Assembly: GCF_964355755.1 (NCBI RefSeq)
Contig: NC_092676.1
Location: forward strand, 16,598,288-16,662,287
DNA: 64,000 nt
Direction of reading: 5' to 3'
DNA from: Antedon mediterranea
Taxonomy: Eukaryota > Echinodermata > Crinoidea > Comatulida > Antedonidae
The first letter of the stretch is position 1. Each line of letters starts with the position of its first letter. Position numbers and translations under genes: made by a program. Below the pieces are notes generated by a model. It searched no databases. It had not been told where the DNA came from and saw only the letters and a program-made list of their open reading frames with translations. This document shows, piece after piece, positions 3,001 through 53,210 of this stretch.

Positions 3001-6000
3001 ACTGTTTGCTAGTGCGCTATAAAGTTTCGTTTCCGGCCAACTAGAGTTGTCCTACTGATGAGTAGGCTAATAGATTAGGCCTATTTTTTTCATTGGGGCT
3101 TCCCCCTGACGTTCGTAATGAACGCAAAAAATGTTTCTTCGCGTATGTTTACCGGCGGAAAAAGTTGGCTACGATCGTTTTGTTGTTTGCTAGCGCGCTA
3201 TAAGTGTTATTTCCGGCCAAACCAGAGGTGTCATTCAACATAAATGTTATGTGCGAGAGTACCATTTCCGGCCATCTAGGGTGTAAATTACCAAAAATCG
3301 CTTCGCCACAGCCCCAACCATGGTGGGGCTGTGACTCAAGTACTTAGTGTCGGAATGCCCCCCCCCCCCTCGTGGGGGGGGGGGGGGAGCGTGACGCTTG
3401 ATGTGAATCCTGGGGAGAACACTGCTCACCATCTCTGAATAAAACTGTTTAACTGATCAACCTTCCCTTCTTCCCTCACCATCTCTGAATAAAACTGTAT
3501 AACTGATCAACCTTCCCTTCTTCCCTCACCATCTCTGAATAAAACTGTTTAACTGATCAACCTTCCCTTCTTCCCTCACCATCTCTGAATAAAACTGTTT
3601 AACTGATCAACCTTCCCTTCTTCCCTCACCATCTCTGAATAAAACTGTTTAACTAATCAACCTTCCCTTCTTCCCTCACCATCTCTGAATAAAACTGTAT
3701 AACTGATCAACATTCCCTTCTTCCCTCACCATCTCTGAATAAAACTGTATAACTGATCAACCTTCCCTTCTTCCCTCACCATCTCTGAATAAAACTGTAT
3801 AACTGATCAACCTTTCCTTCTTCCCTCACCATCTCTGAATAAAACTGTATAACTGATCAACATTCCCTTCTTCCCTCACCATCTCTGAATAAAACTGTAT
3901 AACTGATCAACATTCCCTTCTTCCCTCACCATCTCTGAATAAAACTGTATAACTGATCAACCTTCCCTTCTTCCCTCACCATCTCTGAATAAAACTGTAT
4001 AACTGATCAACCTTTCCTTCTTCCCTCACCATCTCTGAATAAAACTGTATAACTGATCAACCTTCCCTTCTTCCCTCACCATCTCTGAATAAAACTGTTT
4101 AACTGATCAACCTTCCCTTCTTCCCTCACCATCTCTGAATAAAACTGTTTAACTGATCAACCTTCCCTTCTTCCCTCACCATCTCTGAATAAAACTGTTT
4201 AACTAATCAACCTTCCCTTCTTCCCTCACCATCTCTGAATAAAACTGTATAACTGATCAACATTCCCTTCTTCCCTCACCATCTCTGAATAAAACTGTAT
4301 AACTGATCAACCTTCCCTTCTTCCCTCACCATCTCTGAATAAAACTGTATAACTGATCAACCTTTCCTTCTTCCCTCACCATCTCTGAATAAAACTGTAT
4401 AACTGATCAACATTCCCTTCTTCCCTCACCATCTCTGAATAAAACTGTATAACTGATCAACATTCCCTTCTTCCCTCACCATCTCTGAATAAAACTGTAT
4501 AACTGATCAACCTTCCCTTCTTCCCTCACCATCTCTGAATAAAACTGTATAACTGATCAACCTTTCCTTCTTCCCTCACCATCTCTGAATAAAACTGTAT
4601 AACTGATCAACCTTCCCTTCTTCCCTCACCATCTCTGAATAAAACTGTATAACTGATCAACCTTCCCTTCTTCCCTCACCATCTCTGAATAAAACTGTAT
4701 AACTGATCAACCTTCCCTTCTTCCCTCACCATCTCTGAATAAAACTGTATAACTGATCAACCTTCCCTTCTTCCCTCACCATCTCTGAATAAAACTGTAT
4801 AACTGATCAACCTTCCCTTCTTCCCTCACCATCTCTGAATAAAACTGTTTAACTGATCAACATTTCCTTCTTCCCTCACCATCTCTGAATAAAACTGTTT
4901 AACTGATCAACCTTCCCTTCTTCCCTCACCATCTCTGAATAAAACTGTATAACTGATCAACCTTTCCTTCTTCCCTCACCACTTGCATTTTTCATGATTA
5001 CTCAAAAGACCATAGATTGTATAATCCCAATTGGAAATTTTAGTACCTGAAAAGTGAAAAGTAACAATTATTAAAAAAAAAAAACCCTTTGTAGAATTAT
5101 CGGACATTAACAATAATAACAAACCTAATAAGGTACTTTATTTTAACTTGTGTAGTTGTTTTCATGAAATTATTTTTTTCTTTTGTGATAATTGGGGTTT
5201 TTAATATAACTGTTTGAAACATGCATTCTGAAGCTCTGTTTTATTAAGTACTATCAAACTTTATTTGACAAAATATGTGATGTGCCCATATATGTATTAA
5301 TGAGTGATCACTACCATATTTTGGCACATCACACTTTTTTGTCAAACTAGTTTCATAGTGTAGACAGAACTTATAACAGTTTTTTCGTAAATGTACAGTT
5401 ATTTACCTATTTGATTCAATATGTAAACATTGTTTCATTGTCGATATTTTGAATTTAACTATGAAACGACAAAAAGAAACTCTTTGTCTACAAGCAGGAA
5501 CTTATTTTTTTTATCGCGTACACTACAAACTGAGAAAGTTATTACATAACCGCAATGACTAATCACCATGTGGCAGGATTTCACTTTGCTTTCTGTTTCA
5601 ATGTGTAATCATCGTAGCGCACCTTGCGACACGTGCATTAATGGCTTTGTCTATCCATGTCAATTTTATGTATTTAGAATATAGAATTCACGTATCTCTG
5701 AAATTCGTTTAGTTTCCAGGAAACCTAGTAAACACTGTAAATTACATCAAACTAGCTACCTCGTCATATTTCCTTATTTGCAATTTACCAAGTTATCTTC
5801 AGATAATATTAGATAGCAGAAACAAAATTAGTAACAAGCGTTCATTAATATTTATTTTAAAATGCATTAGAAAGTGACCATGTCATTCATTTTTATGAGA
5901 ACATTGACTAACAATTACAAAAATAGCCTTATGAAGTTGAACTCTACTGTTGGTGTTTCAAATGAAAGATGTTGTTTTAGTTTCTTTATAAAAATAAATT

Positions 6001-9000
6001 ATATATCAACAATACAAATATTACAATGTTGATATTACTATTTTTATTTAAGTTCTATTACAATTGATTATTTGTACAATTAGAACACTATTTATTTATA
6101 ACAGCAGCCCAGTGAATATTTGGTCCTAAACTACAGTAGTCTGTTTGGAAACCAACTGTACAGTATCGAGCAAATGTATAGATTATTCATTAATTCAATG
6201 TTGTGCCAAGTTCCTACTGTAATGTAGAAGTGATATTGACAGTATGATACAGTAGGAATAGTTTCAAGCTTTTAAGTTCAGAGGGTCCTAATTGTAATAG
6301 CATGCGAACAAGATATTTTACCCTGTAAGCGAGAGGTCGCAGGTTCGAATCCCGCCAAAGACATTTTTTCATACAACTAAAAAATACGGAACTTTCGCAG
6401 ATGAGCTACTGTATGCTTGACGCGATTTTGAGATCATGTTCCGAATATGAGCCCTGTTTCTATAATTTGACAGTATGATTTATATTTTTCCATTAGATGC
6501 AATGTTATACTAAATGTTATTATTAAGCAAACTACAGGTACAAATATAAAAGAAAAAAAAATATTTCAATAAAATATTTGTTGTTTAATCTAAGCAATAT
6601 GAGGGTAGATGAATCATATCTTGTTGTATGCGATAAGTCTGTAGTTTTCCTTGCTTTTAAATTGAATTTGTTTATGGTCCATTAAAACCTATATTGAACT
6701 TGATATGATATTTGTTTTTTGTTAAACATCAATCAAAAAGCTTTTCCTAATTCCATGTAGATTTGTATGTTACATAAATAAAATTGAAACTGTTTGATTT
6801 GGGAATTGACTGTTTCCTTTATAGGTAACATAGTCATGTATTACTTTAGAGTATTATAGATTATTATGTGTACAGTACAGTACAGTATGTAATTCCTTAC
6901 TTTAATTCTGTGTTGAGTTTTATATATTTTTTTTAATTGCAGAAGAACATTGTGCATCGTGACCTAAAACTAGGAAATATGGTTCTAAACAAGAAGACTC
7001 ACCGAATCACTTTAACAAATTTTTGTCTAGGTAAACATCTTGTGTCCGAGAAAGATCTTTTAAAAGATCAAAGGGGAAGCCCTGCTTATATCAGTCCTGA
7101 TGTTCTTAGTGGTAAGTCATGAGGCAACAGTATTTTATGCAATATTTAATATATACGGTATTTTTTAGTTTATATTTTAAAAGTGGAGTCTTAGCTTGGT
7201 GTTAAACATGCTTGCCTTCCAATCGCAAAGTCCAGTGTTCAATCCTGATCTAGTTCCAGGGTTGAACTCGCAGCTCTTTAAACTCCACTCCTTAAGCCAC
7301 AAAGGAGACTTACGCCCGTATTCTTAAACCGGACTTTAGTGGTAGTTCAAGCTAAAACTAAAAAAATGACGTCATTTTAATTCAAAAACCGAACTTCAAC
7401 TAAATCACCGACTAAATCAGGCCAACCTCGACTAAATCGAGACGGATTTTGATCGATTTTTTTAGTCCTGGAGGGGGCAGACTAAATGGTCGACTAAATG
7501 TTTTTTAAACGATGTTTATAAAAAACGTAACAGTCATTGAGTTGTTATATTGGCCAGATATTGAAGAATGAAATATCTATATTTATATTAGCTTAAAGCC
7601 CCATTCCCTACGTTTTTTAGATCTAATTTAAGATCACAAACTATATTTAATGTAAAAATAATACTATATGGTCCTATTGCGATAACTTTTTTCGTCTTTA
7701 AACGGTTAAAAATGTGAAAAATAAATCGATTTTAATAATTATAGCGGCCCGCTATAAATCCCAAAATGCATTGCGCGCGGATTGATATTGTTGTTTTTCA
7801 CCTGTAATTCGCCCACTTTTCGATCGATCGTGAAGCCAAAACAAATGGAAGACTCCTAACTTTTCAGCGAAAATACCGGGTTTTCCCCAATTTGTATCAA
7901 CGGAGTCTGGCAAAAATAGAAAGACAATTAATGCAGCAACTATACAACGTCAGGCTAGGTATATAGCTAGCGTACGATGTTCGTACGTTACCGATGTTTA
8001 CCAGCTAGGCCTACAAAACTAAGCCTAGCTAGGCTAGGCCTGAGACCGTCCACGAGAGGTCGATCGCCGCGAGCTACTTAGGTAGTGCATTGTTTCTCAC
8101 TTTTTATCATAATTTACCATAAAACGTACATTTAAGACAAGGAATGACATGGTTTAATGTTTTTAAAGTGATATATATGTATTATTTTCCAAAAAACGTC
8201 CAAAATTGCAGGGAAGGGGTCTTTAATTAAATATACATTGGTATAAATTATAATAATGAAAATCATCTTTATTTACAACTGTATACAAATTACATTATTT
8301 TCTTCGCGCAAGTCCGACTTGAGCTACGTCACGCCATAGCGACAATGGGAGATGCGGCAATTCACCACGCGATGGAATGTTTAGGGGGCCTAGCGCTTTC
8401 TTGTCACGCTATGAAGTGCGTGGTTCGTGGCGATCATACTTTGTTGGAGGCCTAGAAAATATAAAAGTTACCGTACCGCCATGGTTCCTAAATATATTTT
8501 GAAGATTTTATTTGTTGTTAATCAAATATACTTCACTGTTAAATTAATACTGATATTGTTCTAATAATTAACGATTAAAATTATTTTTCATGTATATAGT
8601 CCTGATGCGTAAAAAGTGTTGTAAGAAATGGAAAGTGATATCAATGCGCAAAATTTCGTCTGCTCCTCAAATACTCTCTTGTCATTGGCCAATGTATAGC
8701 CTTTGTTACCCAGACGTGTGCAACTCGACTAAAAGCTCGACTTCATTAAGTCGAACTGCAAACTTCGACTACTTCGTTTTTGAATCGAATTTGAAGTAAT
8801 AGCTCGAACTACGACTTTTCCAAGTCGAACTTCGAACTACGACTAAAGTCCGGTTTAAGAATACGGGCGTTAGTTTACAAGCACGATAAACTATAAAATA
8901 GTTTATCCATCCTGTAATTGGCGAGTTACTGTTGGATGCATCCTGTATAAAATAAAAAAAAAAATATGTCTGAATTTTAGAAGTAGTGATGAAACATGAC

Positions 9001-12000
9001 CAAGAGATAAACTTTCTCAGAAGAAAATATCTGATCCAAAAAATTCCACTTTGAGGTAACCATAAAGTCCCTCATTACTGCAAGAATATCCTTAATAAAT
9101 GTGCCACTGCCATAACAATAACCTACAGTACTATACTGTACATTGGGTGTAAACAGAAACTTGTTGATATTTGATTGGGTGGCTTGATTTTGGTTTTGCA
9201 ATCAACCTTCCTCGAAATCCTTGGCCATATGTTTGGCTTTCTGGAAAGTCTTAAATTATATTTGAAGTTGTACATGTATATATTATTGCAAAATATGGAG
9301 TCGGGTTGGTGAACATCAGTCCAAAATACGCAGAATTTTTTCCAAAATACGTCAAGTTGAGGGCGCTATACTAATCCAAAATACGCGAGTCTTTCCAAAA
9401 TACGTCAACTTGAGGGCGCTATTCATTTTCCAAAATACGCAAATTGTCCAAAATACGTCAAATTGAGGGCGCTATTCATTTCCAAAATACGCGATTTGTC
9501 CAAAATACGTCAATTTGCAATTTGGGACCGCTAGTAATTTTCCAAAATACGTCAACTTGAGGGCGGCAAACTTTTTTCCAAAATACGAGAGCCTTTCCAA
9601 ATGTATCATATTGAAAGTGTAAGGTAGAATTACAGTTTAATGTATTAAAAAAAAGTTTCTTAGAGTAAAACAAACAAGTACATTTTAGTTATAAATGAAA
9701 GTATTGGAAGGCAGAATTTTTTGTAAATAAAATGTCATAGAGTAGCCAATTATTATTTTTCAATGTAATCATTTATTACTGAATAAAAACAAATATGTGC
9801 CAACATCAGTCAATAGACAGTGCCTATAATATACATTAATAATGTCTGAACAATGTACGATTGCATTGCCAGACGTAGCTAGTTTAAATGAGGCATAAAC
9901 CGGCTACAAAAGCAGCATGTACGTATAGTATTTAAGCATAGTCATGGGCATGTGTTATATACAGTCAACTCTCCCAATACCGGACACCTTTGGGCCGGCC
10001 AAATAAGTCTGGTTTTCCGGAAAGTCTGGTATTCGGAATGTGTTTTTAATGGTAAATATAAATTTGGGACCTTTTGGTCCTCAAAAAAAGTCTGGTATTG
10101 GGAGAGTTTCTGGTTTTCAGAGAGTCCGGTATTGGGAGAGTTGACTGTATTTGGTGATCTGAAAAATCGATATTTTTCCCGAGCTCGACAGACCAACATC
10201 GCTTTCAATTTAATGTACAGTACTTATGGTCAAATAAGTTACCTAATCTGAAATCTAACATAATAGTTATTTCATATAATATATAATAATAATAAAAAGC
10301 ATATGGTATTGTAATTAAAATAATATCAATAATTGGTTAGAAGAAGTAAAGTAATTATTTAAATCGCGTATTTTGGAAAATGAATAGCGCTCTCAAGTTG
10401 ACGTATTTTGGAAAATTACAAGCGGTTCCAAATTGACGTATTTTGGACAAATCGCGTATTTTGGAAAATGACTAGCGCCCTCAACTTTACGTATTTTGGA
10501 CAATTCGCGTATTTTGGAAAATGAATAGCGCCCTCAAGTCGATGTATTTTGGAAAGACTCGCGTATTTTGGATTAGTATAGCGCCCTCAACTTTACATAT
10601 TTTGGAAAAAATTCTGCGTATTTTGGACTGAATTTCACCAACCCTATTGAAAATATGTGAAGGGTAAAGAAGAAATTGTTCCTTTTTTAGCCTTTAACCA
10701 AAGTCTGCTTTTCAAAGAGTTTGTTATTGGGAGAGTTCACTGACTTAATTACAAAAGGGAGATATTCTAAACACTCTGGTAGTTTGATAAATACAGACAG
10801 TAACGTATACTGATACACTACAGCATTGTTTTAATTTAGCCTTGTAAGGCCCTGTTTCTGCTGCCAAGAAAATACCGTATTTTATACGGTATTTCTTGAA
10901 TACCGTATATATACCGTATTTTTTTGGCAGCAGAAACTGCGCTCATAAAAAAAATACTGTATTTTGTATACCGTATTTTCCCCACAAAATTTATTTACTT
11001 ACTTATTTATTTACAAATTTATACCATATTTTTTGTACCCTTTTCTGCTGCCAATAAAAAATACCGTATTTTTTTTTACCTGTGACATGAGGTCAACATG
11101 TTTTTATTTTCTGTGGCTGTCAGCGGTTTTACACACGTGTATAGATATATTCGGCGAAAATGTGGAGCGAAGACGTCACAGTATTTACTATATAAATCTG
11201 TGTGGGGAAGAAGGGGGTGGGGAAGCTAAGATGTCCGGCCAACTAAAAGGTAATAAAAGGGACAACCACATTTATAAAGACATTTCTAAAAAAATAAAGC
11301 AGCAGGAGTACGGAATACACTTGTCTCCAAGCAAGTAAATTCAAAGCTGAAGAGCCTGCGAAGCAGTACAACATTGCAAAAGACAATAACTCGGGGAGGG
11401 AACGAATTACTTGTCCCCATTACGATGTTTTCTGTGCTCTCACAACATCTCTATCACTGGGGCTAGGCTGTTGAAAGTGAGACATAAAACTTCCTTTATT
11501 GCGACTTTTAATTATCGACCAAATAAATGAATGGCAATCGTATAGAAAATACCGTATATTTATACTGTATTTTGAGCAGTTGCAGCAGAAACAGGCCCTA
11601 TTATGCTCTGAACCCCTGGTTTACCAGGTTTTACCTTCCATTCCAGAGTTTCCATGAATTAATTAAACATGTCCACAGAGTTGACTATACTAAACTAATA
11701 ATATGTGTAGATAGAATAATGAATAATAATAATGAAATGAATAATTTTAATTGAAAAGTTTATTTTTCATGGAAAAACTCACAATTGATGTGAAACTGTT
11801 GTCATTCATACACCCTTATTGTTTTAATAGCATCAATGCCAACTAATTAATCACAATCAATTACTCATTTATGGGTTTTGTTTTGATGGTATTAACAGCT
11901 AGTCTGTCAGTTTCTATAGTATTATGTCTCCATGCAATAAATCAGTAATAGCCTGGGTGCAGAACAATAATATACACATTTGCGGGAAAAAAGTATAGGA

Positions 12001-33539: not shown

Positions 33540-34980
33540 TGGAAAGTTGATTTTCGCATATTTAATAACGGACAATTTGGCATCCACACATTTCCATTCG
33601 GCAAGCAAAAGGATTATCAAGGGGCCGTGCAGTGGCTATGAATCGTGTTGTGGTAGGAAACTATATATATTATATATATATTAGAAGGTATTCTGAACAG
33701 TGAACACCTGCGCAACTCACCCAGCAAAATCTACAATATGGATGAGTCTGGCTGTCAATTGGTAAACAAACCAGGAAAGGTGCTTGCTGTGAAGGGGAAG
33801 CGCTCTGTAGTTTCCATAAAAAATGCCGAGAGGGGAGAAAATGTTGGTTGGTGTAATGCTGCTGGCGGTTATGTACCACCATACATATATCATGAAAGGC
33901 AAGAGAAGGAAGGATGAATGGCTAACTCCTGGATCTAAACTGGCCATGTCGGACACCAGCTACATTAATAAAGAGATTTTTTGGATTGGTTAAAACATTT
34001 CAGACAGCACGCATCAGTAGGAAAAGTCATCCTGATAATGGACTGGCATGGTTCTTATGTACAGTCTATTGATGCCATTAAATTTGCAATGGCTAATGAC
34101 ATTATAATGGTTTGCTTACCATCACACACCACCAAATACTTGCAGCCACTTGACAGGACCCTTTTCAAGTCAATGAAGTCGTATTATAAAAGCAGCTACC
34201 AACAACTGGATGAGAAACCATCCAGGAAAAGGTATTACAAAATACAAATTCCCAGCCCTTTTCTACAACACATGGGGAAAGACTGCCAACAGTCAACAAT
34301 GCAGTGTCTGGATTCAAGGCATGTGGGATATTTCCATTTAAGCCCCAAGCAATTCCAGATGAAGCCTATGACCGTTAACATTTTCAGAGAGACCAAATCC
34401 AGACAACCAACAACCCAGCAGATGACCCAGCAATCCTGGAAGAACCAGAAGACATACCTGGACCGTCTGCTCCATGTGTCCTAACAATGGCTGACTTTTA
34501 AACATTTGATAAAATAATACAGCTACCAACTGTGGAAAGAATTGTCGGCAAGGCCAAACGAAGGGCCGGATTGATCACATCACTAGCTTATGTGGATAGT
34601 TTAAAGGATCCAGGTATTCTTTTAATACATTGTATATTTTAACTTTTTATGTATGAATATCGAATAAAATCAATCAATCAATCAATCAAGCAGAAAGTGC
34701 TGCTGGACAGAAAAAAAAAAGGAAAAACAACTGGAAAAGGAAAGAAGGGAGGAAATAATAAAGGAAAAGAAAAGGCTCAAGCAAAACAGAACAATACAAT
34801 TCCCGAAGGAGCAGATGATGACATTAAGAATTATTGTGGGGTGTGCAATGGTTTTTTCTATGACGATGAATTCGAAGAAGAGTGGATAGCATGCCAAGTG
34901 TGCAGTACTTTAGTTTCATGAGTCTTGTGCAATTAAGGCTGAATTTATCTGTACTGTATGCACATAAACTTAATGCTGAA
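33540..34980 (+). pseudogene. pogo/Tigger-like DDE transposase pseudogene
   Basis: Frames at 33580-34480 carry GIHTFPFGKQKDYQGAVQWL, IYNMDESGCQLVNKPGKV (first catalytic Asp context), NAERGENV, DWLKHFRQH and ILIMDWHGSYVQSIDAIKFA (second Asp). Then come VCLPSHTTKYLQPLD, the typical pogo block, and KSMKSYYKSSY. The 3' part (34690-34976) encodes a Lys-rich linker and a PHD-like zinc module, YCGVCNGFFYDDEFEEEWIA, then CQVC; the second half of the module is in another frame. Stops and frameshifts (for example near 33917, 33960 and 34905) make it non-functional. An (ATCA)n tract lies at 34668-34690. Confidence 0.8.
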
Positions 34981-35508: not shown

Positions 35509-36300
35509 CTAGTTTATAAAACTTAAATACGCCATAATAACATATAGAACATAATTATTAATGAAAACTAATAATGAACCAACAATATTCATGTAAATTT
35601 GTCGGAATGGTTCACTAATTACTGACATAGGAATCATCGGTGCCTTCAATTTAGTTTTATACTTTGAAGTTTTCTGACAATTCTCACAAGTGTTGCAATA
35701 TTCAGTCACATCCTTTCTAATACCAGGCCAAAAGAATCTTTGCTTTATCCTATCTAATGTCTTTTTCCTACCTAAATGACCTGCCAAAGGAATATAATGT
35801 GATACTTTCAATACACTATTACGGCAAGGGTATGGAACTACTAATTGCTCTATTGGTTCTGTCTGGTGTTTAGTGAAAACTTGCCTAAATAACATTCCAT
35901 CCTTACAGACTATCTTTATAGTGTCATCATCTTTCTGTACTAACATCTGTTCTCGAAGTGGAATTAGAGTTCTATCCATAACCTGAAAATCCTTAATTTT
36001 ATCTCTGCCAATATCTAAAATGTCTAATTCACTATCTTGGCTAGATTGAGCTTCCTTTGTTTTTGCAAACTCTTTCCTAACTTTTCGTTTCTCACTTCTG
36101 GTTTTATGAACTTTTTCCTTTGGAGGGTTGTCACTGAGTAGTTGGCCATCTAAATGTCCAAATTCTTCTTGAAAATTAACCACATCATCTAACTGACGTG
36201 AAATAACCCCAGAAGCTTTTTCCGAATTTAATTCGTTTTCCTCTCTTAGTTTTTCTTTTCTAGCATGATCTCTAGTGTCAACTTCAGGAGTGCCTTTCAC
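35509..36300 (-). pseudogene. Integrase N-terminal (H2C2) region of the gypsy-like element
   Basis: Open for 263 codons on the minus strand. The first 120 residues are charged and unrecognised. Then come HYIPLAGHLGRKKTLDRIKQ and FFWPGIRKDVTEYCNTCENC, the H-H-C-C zinc-binding module of retroelement integrases. The frame ends about 50 residues later, before any D,D-35-E catalytic core. It is a deletion remnant and not an active integrase. Confidence 0.85.
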
Positions 36301-36351
36301 TGTTTTCTCCTGGTTGTTTCGATTTTTGTGTTTCCTATTTTGAAACTTTTT

Positions 36352-37502: not shown

Positions 37503-39365
37503 ATACATTACAAATAATATCATAAATTTAATATTATTCAATTGTTGAAATGATAGTAAACCTCATGTTAGTACTGTATGAGAAATAAATTTAAGCAAAA
37601 GAGTTTAAAAGTCTCTTTTGGCCATGATTTGTATTGTGTTTTTTACAGGGGCCATTTCACCTGAACCGGTGAGGTGAAATGAACCCTTAGCCTCTGACCC
37701 CGAATCATTTGCTTTTGCTCCGTGTTGGCTCAAATGTTTACCCGCCAACTTATCAGGAAAGATACATAGGCCTATAGCAGCAACTGACCTGACCGACAAG
37801 CATATTTTGCGTCGATAGGTAAGAGGAGAAAAACATGCCACCTCTACAACGGCGATGCACAAGTCCAGCCAAATATAAAGGTACGATACTGTATGGTCTT
37901 AGGTCTTAAAGAAAGAAGAAGAAATGGACTCAGTTACTGGAAAACTCTAACAGAGTTATCCCTACAGATTTGACAATATAGGTAATTTTACGAAACCATA
38001 TCACAGTTATGGACACAGATACTCTTCGTACATAACAAAACTTTCAGGACAGATAACTTGATGACTTTGAAGTAAAAGGTATCACAAAAAATATATGAAC
38101 CGACTGAATGAGTAAGTTCGATAACATAATTAATTAAACTTAGATGGATCAGAGAGAATTTTCCTAATTACCCAAATCAAATCAAGAGAAGTCACCAGAC
38201 GACATCAACATTAGACGAGCTTACTCACAAATTCAAAATGCTTCTCCAAACTCGTCGCCGGCTTAACAATGCTTTCCCAGAGAGAACACTGAACTGAATA
38301 AAAGGCCGAAATCTTTTCAAAACAACTTGTAATATAAGATTAAACGACCAGAAATAAATTATTTGACATAGTCTAAAGAAGACGAGACGAGAGAAGACGA
38401 AAAAAAAAGACATAATCCAACAATTCACCCGGAATCGTCTAGGAGCTGCAAACATTTCTTGGCAACTACACTGGCCTCTTAATTGAGTGGACAAAAGTAT
38501 GACAGTCCAGAGTTTATATAATTGAACCAAAGCATCAAATCCAAGGCTACAAAACACTGAAAAATGTTATACAACAAAAAAATTTATTTTATCAAGGAAT
38601 AGAAAAAATAGGATTAAAAGCCGATAGAGGACAGGTATCAATTGGATTGGTACCCCACTTAACAGAACAGGAGGCAACCATACTGTAGTATAAGCTGAGT
38701 TTACTGTTTTAAAGCTACACACGAAAACATTGGGCAACAAATCGAAGACTGGATACATGCAGTGCAGATAGATTAGTGACGCGCATGGAGAAGTGGTAAG
38801 ACACACAAGTAAGAGCAAGTATCTTGTTTTGCACTTGGGGGCACGAAAGAAAGTAAAGCTAGCATTCAAAGAATAAATGTATGGATATGGAGAAGCAAAT
38901 CCTGCCGTATCCCTAATGGCAAACTTAGAGGTGAAACTGATGGCTTTGTTGCGAAAAGTACTGCTACAGTTTATGTTTATACTGTCGGATTCCCGAGTTC
39001 ATGTCGGATTCCTGAGTTCATGAGCGATTAGTTCATATACATATCTTTTACACTCAAAACAATCACGGAGACAAATCAGGCAGAAAACCATCAGCTTTTA
39101 TGGTTGCTAGTATTTCCTTACCTTTAAACTTGTATTTTACCATTGCTGTACAGACCATTCTGTTATTTTTTGTATACAATAACAAACGGTAAATAAAACC
39201 AAATACAGCGCAAATAATATTGATGCATTTGTGGAAGGTTACCAGGATAGATGCTGCAGATATTGTGATAGCTCACATGGAAGGCGCTGCTAGGAAAGAG
39301 ATAAGCTACAATTCTCTAATTCCATATTGGAATTGTGAGAGTCAATAGAAAACATCAAATTCTAC
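37503..39365. other. Intergenic sequence of unknown origin
   Basis: 1.9 kb, less AT-rich than its surroundings in places. A small inverted repeat (CATTTCACCTGAACCGGTGA at 37653-37680) and a short direct duplication (TCGGATTCCCGAGTTCATG type, 38984-39021) are present. Stretches of 38.7-38.9 kb give protein-like but interrupted translations on the + strand that I could not assign. A decayed mobile element is possible. Confidence 0.4.
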
Positions 39366-40590
39366 TTTCAACATTGAGATGGACAATAGCAGACTTCACT
39401 GCTTTCTTCTTTCCATATTGAGATGGTCAAAAGCAGACACCACTGCTTCTTTCATTCCACAATGAGATGGTCAATAACAGACATGACTGCTTTCTCCTTT
39501 CCACATTAAGATGGTCAATAGCAGACATCACTGCTTTCTTCGTTCCACATTGAGATGGTCAATAACAGAAATCAATTTATTCTTCATTCCATATTGAGAT
39601 GGTCAATAGCAGACTTTACTGCTTTCTTCTTTCCATATTGAGATGGTCAATAGCAGACACCATTGCTTCTTTCATTCCACAATGTGATGGTCAATAACAG
39701 ACATGACTGCTTTCTCCTTTGCACATTAAGATGGTCAATAGCAGACATCACTGCTTCTTTCATTCCACATTGAGATGGTCAATAGCAGATATCACTGCTT
39801 TCTTCCTTCCACATTCAGATGGTCAATAGCAGACACCACTGCTTTCTTCATTCTACATTGAGATGGTCAATAACAGACATCACTGCTTTCTTCCTTCCAC
39901 ATTCAGATGGTCAATAGCAAACACCACTGCTTCTTTCATTCCACATTGAGATGGTCAATAGCAGATATCACTGCTTCTTTCATTCCACATTGAGATGGTC
40001 AATAGCAGACATCACTGCTTTCTTCCTTCCACATTCAGATGGTCAATAGCAGACACCACTGCTTTCTTCATTCCACATTGAGATGGTCAATAACAGAAAT
40101 CAATTTATTCTTCATTCCATATTGAGATGGTCAATAGTAGACTTTACTGCTTTCTTCTTTCCATATTGAGATGGTCAATAGCAGACACCATTGCTTCTTT
40201 CATTCCACAATGTGATGGTCAATAACAGACATGACTGCTTTCTCCTTTGCACATTAAGATGGTCAATAGCAGACATCACTGCTTTCTTCATTCCACATCG
40301 AGATGGTCAATAGCAGAAATCACTTCATTCTTCATTGTACATTGAGATGGTCAATAGCAGACACCACTGCTTCTTTCATTCCACATTGAGATGGTCAATA
40401 GCAGACATCACTGCTTTCTTCCTTCCACATTCAGATGGTCAATAGCAGAAACCACTACTTTCTTCATTCTACATTGAGATGCTCAATAGCAGACATCACT
40501 GCTTTCTTCATTCCACATTGAGATGGTTAATGGCAGACATCAGTGCTTTCTTTAATCCACATTGAGACGGTCAATAGCAGACATCACTGC
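39366..40590. repeat. 44-bp minisatellite derived from the FANCE 3' end
   Basis: About 27 units of 44 bp, typically CATTCCACATTGAGATGGTC and AATAGCAGACATCACTGCTT. The array runs without a break into the last FANCE exon. On the FANCE strand the unit reads KAVMSAIDHLNVE-stop, matching the gene's own terminal KAVMSAIDRLNVD-stop, so the array is an amplification of the last codons, stop and adjacent UTR. Two variant units contain AATAAA on the FANCE strand (39576-39581, 40104-40109). Confidence 0.95.
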
Positions 40591-43500
40591 CTTTTTGAGG
40601 AATGTTTCATTGCCTTCAAGCAATGTCCTTAAGCTTCTCATATGATCTGAAGTCAACTGAAATTAGAAAAAATAGTGAGAAATTAAAATAAGAAATATAA
40701 TACAGTAATAATAGTATGAAATGAAATATTTAGAACATTTGCTGAAATAAATCACTAGCATAAAATCATACTACTTCTCTTGACAAGCTTCTGCTCTTTG
40801 TACAGTGGTCATAAGAAAGTGATGACTCACTCTTTGTGTGGAGAATTGAAATAAATAAATAAAACATAGAATATGTACCTGGCTTCCATATTTCTTTACA
40901 AATGTGTGTAGTAGCTTGGCAAATTTTGCACATGAACGCATATTAGATGCATGATTCTGTAACCCTGATACAATCATGGTAATGTCACTGTCTTCGAATT
41001 GAAGCTAGAAGAGAAAAAAGAATGATCTTTACTTCAAGGATCAAAATAAACTTTCGAGTTATGGCAGGCCTGTACATTAAATGGACAAAAATCCAAATTT
41101 AGTGTGAACTTTTTTTTGTTTCATTATACTTTTTTGATATGGAAATTATTTTAAGTTGATCATTCTTCATTCCTAATAATAAGAAAACTAGACACCTGGT
41201 TTCTATATAGTTTTGTAATCTGTCAATATTGGCCACTGGAAACCGATTTTCATGATTGGATTCATGATTTTTAAACCACTCCCAAAAACTGTTTTTAGGT
41301 TTTACATCAAAATACAGACTATTCTTCTATCTACTTACTTTTGAATCTATCAACAATTGTACACAAGTAGTCACATGAACATTCCACAACATATTTTCCT
41401 TAAAGATGTCTCTAAAGAAATAAAGAACAAAGAACTAATTATTAACAATAAACCAAACTTCGAGCAGCAATGTTGAAGACCAATCTCCAGAAAAATAAGT
41501 AAAAGAGGTAAAAAAGAGTAAAATCCTCAATCCATATTACTTTGATTACTTCTTAAGATTGTAGTGTATCTTCATATAAATACAAAAATTCATTAAAAAA
41601 TACCCCTAATTTGTATTACGAATTCTGAACAGAAAAACAATTAATGCAGCAACTAGACGACGTCAGGGATAGCTAATTAGGTAGTGCATTGTTTCTCTCT
41701 TTTTATCATAAATTACCATACAACGTACATCTAAGACAAGGAATGACCTGATTTAATGTTTTTAAAGTAATATATAATAATATGCATTATTTTTATAAAA
41801 CATCAACAATTGTAGGGAATTGGTCTTTATTTAATACGGTACAATCTATATTTAAAATCGATTCCCGCCTCAATGTATTTTTTATTCAATTCTTTTAAAA
41901 TGAAATCTAGTCTTTGAAAAGTACTTACCTAAAGAAAAGATGTTTGTTATCAACATCGAGGGCATCTTTAACAATATTTGTAACTAAACTGCATTGACAA
42001 GCCGCGAACTTATCACTCTGAATAACTGGTATCAGAATATTCTGTACTGCAGGTCCCTGGAAAACTTTACTGAACGTCAGAGATGCATTGACGAGTTGTC
42101 TTGAAGGAGGGTTTGTTAAATCTAGAATCTGAACAAATTTATATTTTATTTCCACAAATGTACTGATAAGTAAACTGAATACATCTTGTTAGTTTGTAGT
42201 CAGTTATCATTTCTAAAAAAAAAAATTAAAGATAAGATGTCTAAATAAAATTAGGTTAAGATAAAAAAACAATATGCAAGGGTGCTTTAGTCTGTTTCGA
42301 CATATTTTGATGGCTACCTTTTTCATGAATAGAAGTTGTGCAATCATAGTAAGACTAGTGATTGGTAAATAGTCTGATACAGCAGCAAAATCTTGGCTAA
42401 CAGTCACTAAATGTTTGGTGTAAAGTTCTTCAAGTTTCAGGATTCTACAAGCAACACTCATCTATAATACAAACACAATAACATACACTAATATACAAAT
42501 AATGAATGTGAAAGATGAAATTCTTTTTTCACGAGGCAAAGCCTGAAAATATAATTTAATATTTCCCCAAATAAAATTATTTGTACGATCGCACAAATAT
42601 ATGAACATTAATTATTTGTTTTATATAATATTCAAGTAGATTTTTGTCAATGCCATTGTCCTGATCTTGTTGTTTTGAAGGAGAGATCACGTCATGCGAG
42701 TTGCTACCTTAGCAGAACAACAGCTATTTGATTTCAGACAGATTTTTCCCCCATACTATTGCATGCCATGTGTATAAGTATACATATTTATAATTTAGTA
42801 TACACTTTATTATTATTATCTATGACAGAGGCTGATGTAACCATTGCCCATTTCAAGGATGGAATGGGTTGAGTGCACATGATGTTCTTAGTATACCACC
42901 AATGGTGAGTCAGATGTGATACTAGACTAATATCGTTTCATGTGTGCTCTGCTACTACTGTATACGTATACATTTAAAAAAAATGTAGAGTACATGATTA
43001 ACATACTGATATCAGCTTGAATTGTATACACACATGACAAGTCACTCAAAGAAATACAAATAAGGAAGAGTATTCATATCAAGTATGAAAATCTGATCAG
43101 TGAGTACAGTGAAATACCTTATCTTTTACATTCAAATACCTTATCTATAACTTCCATTTTGTTTGAATAAAGTTAAATACTGTACCTGAGCACTGTTAAG
43201 GGTACCAAGAAATCCCAAATCATAACATGACTTTTGCGAACTCAGCCAAGAGCGAGAAATTTTCTCCAATTTTATCTAGGAAAAATGAGCAGAAAACAAT
43301 TCAATTATACAATGTATAATTAGTTTTTGTTAAATAAAACAGTAGTTTTCACGGACATATTTGACAGTACAAGAACAATTTTGATATATCTAATTTGTAA
43401 TATAAACTATCTTTATTATTATCAATGGTAGTCAATACATTATGAGATGCTGTGATTTCTCCCCTACTTTTAGGATGGCAACAAAAGAAGAAAGATTTTG

Positions 43501-51806: not shown

Positions 51807-53210
51807 GGGTGTCACGAAACCTAAGACCACGAAAGCTAAGACCCCCTAAGACCTAAGATCACGAAAGCTAAGACCCAAGACCTAAGATTACAAATATTTA
51901 TCTTTCGCACCTGCCTTGTATTTTAACTCCCAACATTTATTCTGAATACCACACCTTAGAATTGGCACTTTCATGAAAAAGAATCACATAAAAAGTAACA
52001 AATACATTTTTAAATTGATGATTTTACAGACGTTTTTCTCGCACACAAAATGACTAGCCTACTACAGCACACTAGAAGTAGGCCTACCCCATGTTCAATG
52101 TTTTTGTTTCTATGGAACGTCAACAGAGCAAAAATTATATAGAGGGCTGAAAACTCTGTGGAGTCCATCTACAGTGTGGATGGAACAATGTAAAATTAAA
52201 ATTGTAATGATAATAGTATAATCATGCAAGTACGAAGAAATAAATACTGGCAAATAAATTTTAACTTAAAAATTAAAAAAGTAAAAAAATAAAAGTTTTT
52301 TTTGTTTCGTTTTCTTTCTGTTTTTATACTTGTACTATTATTGTTGCTCTTTTGGCGCTCCATAGAAACAAAAACATTGAGCATGGGGAGCTCGAGGAGT
52401 TACATTACAGTATACAAAGAAACACGTCTGTAAAATCAGGATGGGAAAGGATTTATTTATTTGTTATTATGTGTTTCTCCTTCTGAAAGTACTTATAAGT
52501 CCTAATTTAAAGTGTGGTATTCAGGATAAAGTTATAATCAAGCAAGTACGAAGAAATAAATACTGGCAAATAAATTTTAACTTAAAAATTAAAAAAGTAA
52601 AAAAATAAAAGTTTTTTTTGTTTCGTTTTCTTTCTGTTTTTATCACTTGTACTATTATTGTTGCTCTTTTGGCGCTCCATAGAAACAAAAACATTGAGCA
52701 TCATATGGGGAGCTCGAGGAGTTACATTACAGTATACAAAGAAACACGTCTGTAAAATCAGGATGGGAAAGGATTTATTTATTTGTTATTATGTGTTTCT
52801 CCTTCTGAAAGTACTTATAAGTCCTAATTTTAAAGTGTGGTATTCAGGATAAAGTTAGTCAACAAATTTGGAGTCAAAATACAAGAAAGGCAGGTGCGTA
52901 AGAAAAACATCCTCTGAACCAACACATTGGAGTAAATATATACCAACAAACAACCCGTCAAGTTTGTTTGTTGTAAAGAAAAAATATACATTTACTCAAC
53001 GGGCGAAAATAATGTGAGTTTATCTATGTTTTGCGGTAGTATTAAATTATATTTATGGTAATAAATGAAACCTACTGTGTTTAAAATTATGTATGGATAA
53101 ACAAGTATTGTTTTTAAGCTGTAGTATATCTTAGAATTTGTAATCTTAGGTCTTGGGTCTTAGCTTTCGTGATCTTAGGTCTTAGGGGGTCTTAGGTTTC
53201 GTGACACCTG
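51807..53210. mobile_element. Second Mutator-like element, 10-bp TSD
   Basis: Inverted ends GGTGTCACGAAACCTAAGAC and GTCTTAGGTTTCGTGACACC continue with CTAAGATCACGAAAGCTAAG. TCTAGGAGCC is duplicated exactly at 51797-51806 and 53211-53220. The interior holds a tandem duplication of about 317 bp (starts near 52221 and 52536, ends about 52857). No transposase ORF. Confidence 0.8.

Follow-up and report, generated by a model that had tools for sequence, protein, structure and literature searches.

The 64-kb window, by which the whole stretch of DNA analysed is meant, contains directly behind the coding end of a FANCE gene a minisatellite of 44-bp units that was very probably (at roughly 85%, in our estimate) born by tandem duplication of the end of this gene and grown by exchange or slippage, with units 2–28 drifting neutrally. 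The seed would have been a 44-bp piece consisting of the last 12 FANCE codons with their stop and a further 5 bp, which would have been duplicated in tandem and extended by unequal exchange or slippage to 28 or 29 units, one block having been copied 12 units further on. Unit 1 would have stayed the coding C-terminus of the protein. The units after it, which lie downstream, in what is probably the 3' UTR or else the sequence immediately behind the gene, would have drifted neutrally, and the array may be transcribed.

The gene lies on the minus strand, and its exons were put together manually, with GT and AG as the splice sites, the splicing being predicted. The following parts were used:

42318..42443, minus strand: the stretch used of a FANCE exon for the C-terminal domain (ILKLEELY...LLFMKK), followed by the donor GTAGCC; included in the joined exons with the FA_FANCE match
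41928..42128, minus strand: FANCE exon (ILDLTNPP...NKHLFFR), its last R codon probably split by the splice junction; matched FA_FANCE, below its cut-off, and two PDB entries when taken alone
41339..41410, minus strand: small FANCE exon (DIFKENMLWNVHVTTCVQLLIDSK) with the donor GTAAGT; supported by the joined exons and the human FANCE match
40879..41004, minus strand: penultimate FANCE exon (LQFEDSD...VKKYGSQ) with the acceptor CTAG and the donor GTACAT; supported by the joined exons
40552..40656, minus strand: terminal coding exon of FANCE (LTSDHMRSLRTLLEGNETFLKKAVMSAIDRLNVD), with TAA at 40554-40552; supported by the joined exons and the human alignment

The joined C-terminal exons matched the Pfam family FA_FANCE (PF11510) with 59.8 bits (E 3.8e-16; curated cut-off 22.2), the alignment covering positions 60 to 261 of the 262 in the profile, whereas Bystin and Sdh5 were also matched but both under their cut-offs. 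Human FANCE (2ilr) was matched with E 7.7e-15 in an alignment that stops two residues short of the human end and reads NETFLKKAVMSAIDRL versus NTTFLRKSLKAALKHL. Taken alone, exon 41928..42128 reached 17.5 bits for FA_FANCE, which is under the cut-off, and had just two PDB matches, both of them human FANCE entries (E 0.076 and 0.54). Four upstream stretches tested singly against Pfam gave one FA_FANCE match below the cut-off and three results without a match; the 51-residue upstream exon piece alone matched no Pfam family, and the 34-residue terminal exon alone matched neither a PDB chain nor a Pfam family. A second FANCE copy was not found in the assembly by protein search, four of the five matches being FANCE exons and the fifth having E 7.24, and the Pfam FANCE model gave no match against the whole genome in a search that carries no weight, as its 14 controls gave none either.

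The conserved Phe near the C-terminus is present as well, its codon at 40602-40600 aligning with human Phe-522. The F of NETFLKK corresponds to position 541 of chain 7kzp_E, which we infer to be human Phe-522 from an offset of 19 residues (555 versus 536 aa). Human Phe-522 is described as critical for FANCD2/I mono-ubiquitination (PMC4657327). Only three codons lie between the equivalent codon and unit 1, and for this reason the array copies only the residues behind the Phe together with the stop.

The array itself was called by TRF at 39360-40590 (period 44, 28.0 copies, 83% matches, 0% indels, score 1713) and has a G+C content of 39%, compared with 34% for the window. Its parts are:

40590 to 39359, minus strand: units 1-28, 44 bp each, decomposed without indels
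40547..40590, minus strand: unit 1, the last 12 FANCE codons plus stop plus the next 5 bp, from the unit decomposition
39359..40546, minus strand: units 2-28, that is, 27 more 44-bp units 3' of the stop, from TRF and decomposition
39311..39358, minus strand: probable decayed 29th unit, with indels, from local scoring
40063..40282, minus strand: units 8-12, first copy of a block repeated 12 units further, from lag identities
39535..39754, minus strand: units 20-24, second copy of the block of units 8-12, from lag identities

An earlier note, made from the letters of this stretch, had equated the 44-bp array with the end of the FANCE coding region including the stop, and unit 1 is indeed the C-terminus of the FA_FANCE-matching gene. 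The note's count of about 27 further units after the first agrees with the 27 found (40546 to 39359, without indels), and the units, being exactly 44 bp long, do fall in rotating frames as it had said. The peptide that it quoted for the first unit, KAVMSAIDRLNVD, is the C-terminal end, but its K sits just outside the 44-bp unit. Unit 1 codes AVMSAIDRLNVD-TAA and the 28-unit consensus AVMSAIDHLNVE-TGA; the two differ at 3 of the 44 positions, and at each of these the base of unit 1 occurs in no other unit. The stop said to be shared by the units is thus present in the consensus, but as TGA and not as TAA, and a stop at the position of the FANCE stop codon is retained in only 16 of the 28 units (unit 1 counted).

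Neighbouring units have a mean identity of 0.835, whereas pairs at lag 12 reach 0.918 (n = 16) and no other lag between 1 and 19 exceeds 0.882. This excess at lag 12 is largely caused by the recurrence of units 8-12 as units 20-24. The 44-bp tandem units and the recurring block therefore identify the array as a minisatellite with an internal block duplication: its 28 head-to-tail units lie within the usual length range of about 10-100 bp, and variant units and copied blocks, the traces of unequal exchange, are both seen. Unit 28 is probably followed by a degenerate 29th unit that extends to about 39311, with a best local score of 28 that was reached by none of 3000 random window stretches, albeit with a thin margin to their maximum of 27.

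Which of the two came first, the coding end or the array, was judged by comparison with the FANCE profile and the human protein end, and both lend support to the earlier suggestion that coding sequence plus stop seeded the array. With the tail provided by unit 1, the FA_FANCE profile scored 46.1 bits, compared with 40.5 bits without it and 49.1 bits with the array-consensus tail, which aligns in frame to profile position 261. Two out-of-frame control tails gave 43.0 and 41.5 bits and no alignment past position 253; since they also raise the score above 40.5 bits, part of the gain from unit 1, which is only 5.6 bits, is an end effect, and this lowers the weight of the bit gain. The match to 2ilr improved from E 1.8e-8 for the 155 residues without the unit to 2.5e-10 with unit 1. 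Scored against the nonapeptide at the human end, unit 1 obtained 11 and the array consensus 19. Among the stop-free nonapeptides of the window (n = 68,808), 0.51% reach 11 and 0.015% reach 19, and among those with a stop two to three codons later (n = 7,201) the corresponding values are 0.35% and 0. The gap between 11 and 19 is due to a single codon, which is His in 27/27 noncoding units, as in human FANCE, and Arg in unit 1 alone. Thus 25 of the 27 noncoding units outscore unit 1, with units 9 and 21 scoring lower; as the 27 units are not independent, however, the His pattern counts as one event and not as 27.

An origin in the opposite direction, in which the array existed first, the terminal exon ran into it and the first unit replaced the original end of FANCE, would agree with the fact that the residues without the unit already identify the protein, and also with the presence of just 2 of 9 residues of unit 1 that are identical to the human end, the putative homology within the unit being short. 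Such an origin is nevertheless improbable, as the FANCE profile aligns in frame across the unit to its penultimate position, the protein terminates at about the same place as human FANCE, the 2ilr match is improved by unit 1, the array consensus fits profile and human end better still, and another source of the array was not found in the assembly. Coding-to-array is the supported direction. In the simplest account, seeding took place when His was still present in the coding copy, which changed afterwards. The noncoding copies apparently preserve an earlier form of the protein end that was lost from the coding copy. A-rich sequence is located just ahead of GCAGTG both before unit 1 and at the unit ends. 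These edges would fit a start by microhomology, but the flanking microhomology is weak, and clear flanking direct repeats were not found around the unit, the far edge being decayed.

The unit is confined to this locus as far as the searches extend. All 25 matches to the unit core with up to 3 mismatches in the 354-Mb assembly lie inside the FANCE array, so that none was found outside it at this threshold, and the reversed control pattern had no match; because the pattern search reports 25 of the array's 28 units, it would overlook copies at other loci that differ by more than 3 mismatches. A DNA search of the assembly placed 12 of 12 matches in the array, with one candidate region scored. That a dispersed or transposon-borne repeat landed beside FANCE might be suspected from integrase and DDE remains not more than 6 kb away and from the plentiful other minisatellites, but the confinement of the unit core, at up to 3 mismatches, and the contiguity of unit 1 with the FANCE terminal exon make this extremely improbable. 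As for the remains themselves, an integrase zinc-binding domain (PF17921, E 1.8e-21) is encoded at 35509-36351 of the window on the minus strand and a DDE_1 endonuclease domain (PF03184, E 2.9e-12) at 33972-34484 on the plus strand, each less than 6 kb from the FANCE array.

In units 2-28, no codon-level constraint was seen: they contain 29 distinct coding-frame variants, 7 of which (24%) are synonymous, and the simple neutral expectation is likewise 24%. Each of the six frames of the array has 16 to 26 stops. Hidden coding potential was considered and rejected, the longest stop-free run in six frames being 43 codons and the substitutions lacking a synonymous bias. The earlier note had also expected that loss of the first stop would add residues from the array; some are added, but these are just RKH, after which translation ends at the next stop. 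Motif searches on the FANCE strand gave the following:

40551..40556, minus strand: ATTAAA that spans the last codon, the stop codon and one further base
40104..40109, minus strand: AATAAA at the junction of units 11/12, 443 nt past the stop
39576..39581, minus strand: AATAAA at the junction of units 23/24, block copy of the one at 40109

The two AATAAA motifs that the note had seen in variant units are thus present, at 40109 and 39581, but the further proposal that they set the poly(A) site is weak. Two motifs in the 1.23-kb array are about what chance provides, with approximately 2.8 expected from the window's 2.28 per kb per strand (somewhat fewer given the array's higher G+C content), and the second motif was copied from the first along with its block. 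In the range searched (38500-40760), the pair comprises the first two AATAAA on the FANCE strand after the stop, with the next one at 38588, almost 2 kb downstream, and its use as a poly(A) signal may for this reason be possible.

This position is what speaks for the array as a functional 3' UTR element, acting through poly(A) siting by AATAAA, RNA structure or protein-binding repeats. We consider such a role quite unlikely, since the density of AATAAA is about that of the background, the folds are no better than those of shuffles, codon-level constraint is absent and the window has no Rfam match at the gathering score. An unusual RNA fold was rejected for the 550 nt of terminal exon plus array (z -0.20, with shuffles as control); three 132-nt pieces gave z -1.00, -0.36 and 0.44, and an antisense piece -0.38. 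Neither structure nor poly(A) signals thus rise above background, and judged by folds, AATAAA density and codon variants the array gives no apparent sign of function. We infer that it has no role.

A different kind of significance would arise if the array were a reservoir of spare FANCE C-termini, with later units feeding back into unit 1, which we regard as very unlikely but worth describing. When the FANCE exon is joined to any of the 28 units, an open tail of 12 to 35 residues results (12 residues in 16 units, 15 in 1, 16 in 8 and 35 in 3), and the reading frame through the last helix would therefore be kept if unit 1 underwent gene conversion by a later unit or an in-register deletion fused the two. 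A damaged stop or last helix could then be repaired from noncoding copies, and natural C-terminal variants could appear as fast as minisatellites mutate, directly after the Phe that FANCD2 ubiquitination requires. With only three codons between this Phe and unit 1, any recombination among the units would take place right at the functional C-terminus. The three private bases of unit 1 speak against recent conversion. For the origin by tandem duplication, the value of the locus lies in showing plainly where a minisatellite came from, namely part of a coding exon including the stop codon; seed and apparent older protein state can be read from the array, while the mechanism itself is ordinary.

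The earlier description of this coding-to-UTR amplification as unusual is doubtful, as the genome is dense in minisatellites. In 14 sampled stretches of 10 kb at round coordinates (period 10-100, score at least 100), 22 arrays were counted in 140 kb, which corresponds to 157 per Mb and, extrapolated to 354 Mb, to about 56,000 arrays; 7 of the 22 have 10 or more copies, and the window alone contains 14. As a rough expectation, and with 20,000 genes assumed, randomly placed seeds of 44 bp would include a stop codon in about 140 cases, selection being left aside. With minisatellites this dense, an array seeded at a stop codon is not surprising and can be explained without appeal to the role of FANCE in DNA repair. 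No precedent for a minisatellite unit containing a stop was found among the matches listed in the open-licence literature on minisatellite origins, VNTRs and FANCE. The array is neat, but probably an ordinary example of coding DNA giving rise to a repeat.

Several other arrays were recorded. One sampled stretch (L014, 65-7561) carries a 7.5-kb array with period 88 and about 86 copies. In the window, the arrays at 1112-1493 and 3425-4981, about 2 kb apart, apparently share a 50-bp unit, present in 7.6 and 31.1 copies with 97% matches; the unit contains CTGAATAAAACTG, so that AATAAA is repeated along with it. Two arrays with a 53-bp period at 9320-9517 and 10402-10627, approximately 0.9 kb apart, have consensus units that look like mutual reverse complements. 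Arrays of the same period, approximately 0.7 kb apart, are found at 8896-9146 and 9833-9992 of sampled stretch L011 (same contig, C7) and possibly belong to the same family. A near-identical tandem pair with a 322-bp unit (97% matches) is located at 52209-52857 of the window.

Birth by slippage between short direct repeats is a general model for minisatellites. Slipped-strand mispairing is described as a cause of duplications (PMC3449122). The FANCE array resembles this model in having one seed, one locus and A-rich sequence at both unit edges, but differs from it in the lack of clear flanking direct repeats and in its decayed far edge. Among genic minisatellites, human SLC6A3 has a 40-bp VNTR in its 3' UTR. 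Both cases have tens of units close to 40 bp in length that lie in a 3' UTR or near one, whereas the FANCE unit is the coding end with its stop, and the first unit is therefore translated. Human CEL carries a 33-bp coding VNTR in its last exon, with a unit whose length is divisible by 3 and which extends the protein. Both CEL and FANCE thus have a tandem repeat at the C-terminus, in the terminal exon; in contrast to CEL, however, the 44-bp unit of FANCE is no multiple of 3 and unit 1 carries the stop of the gene, and the copy number of the array leaves the protein unchanged.
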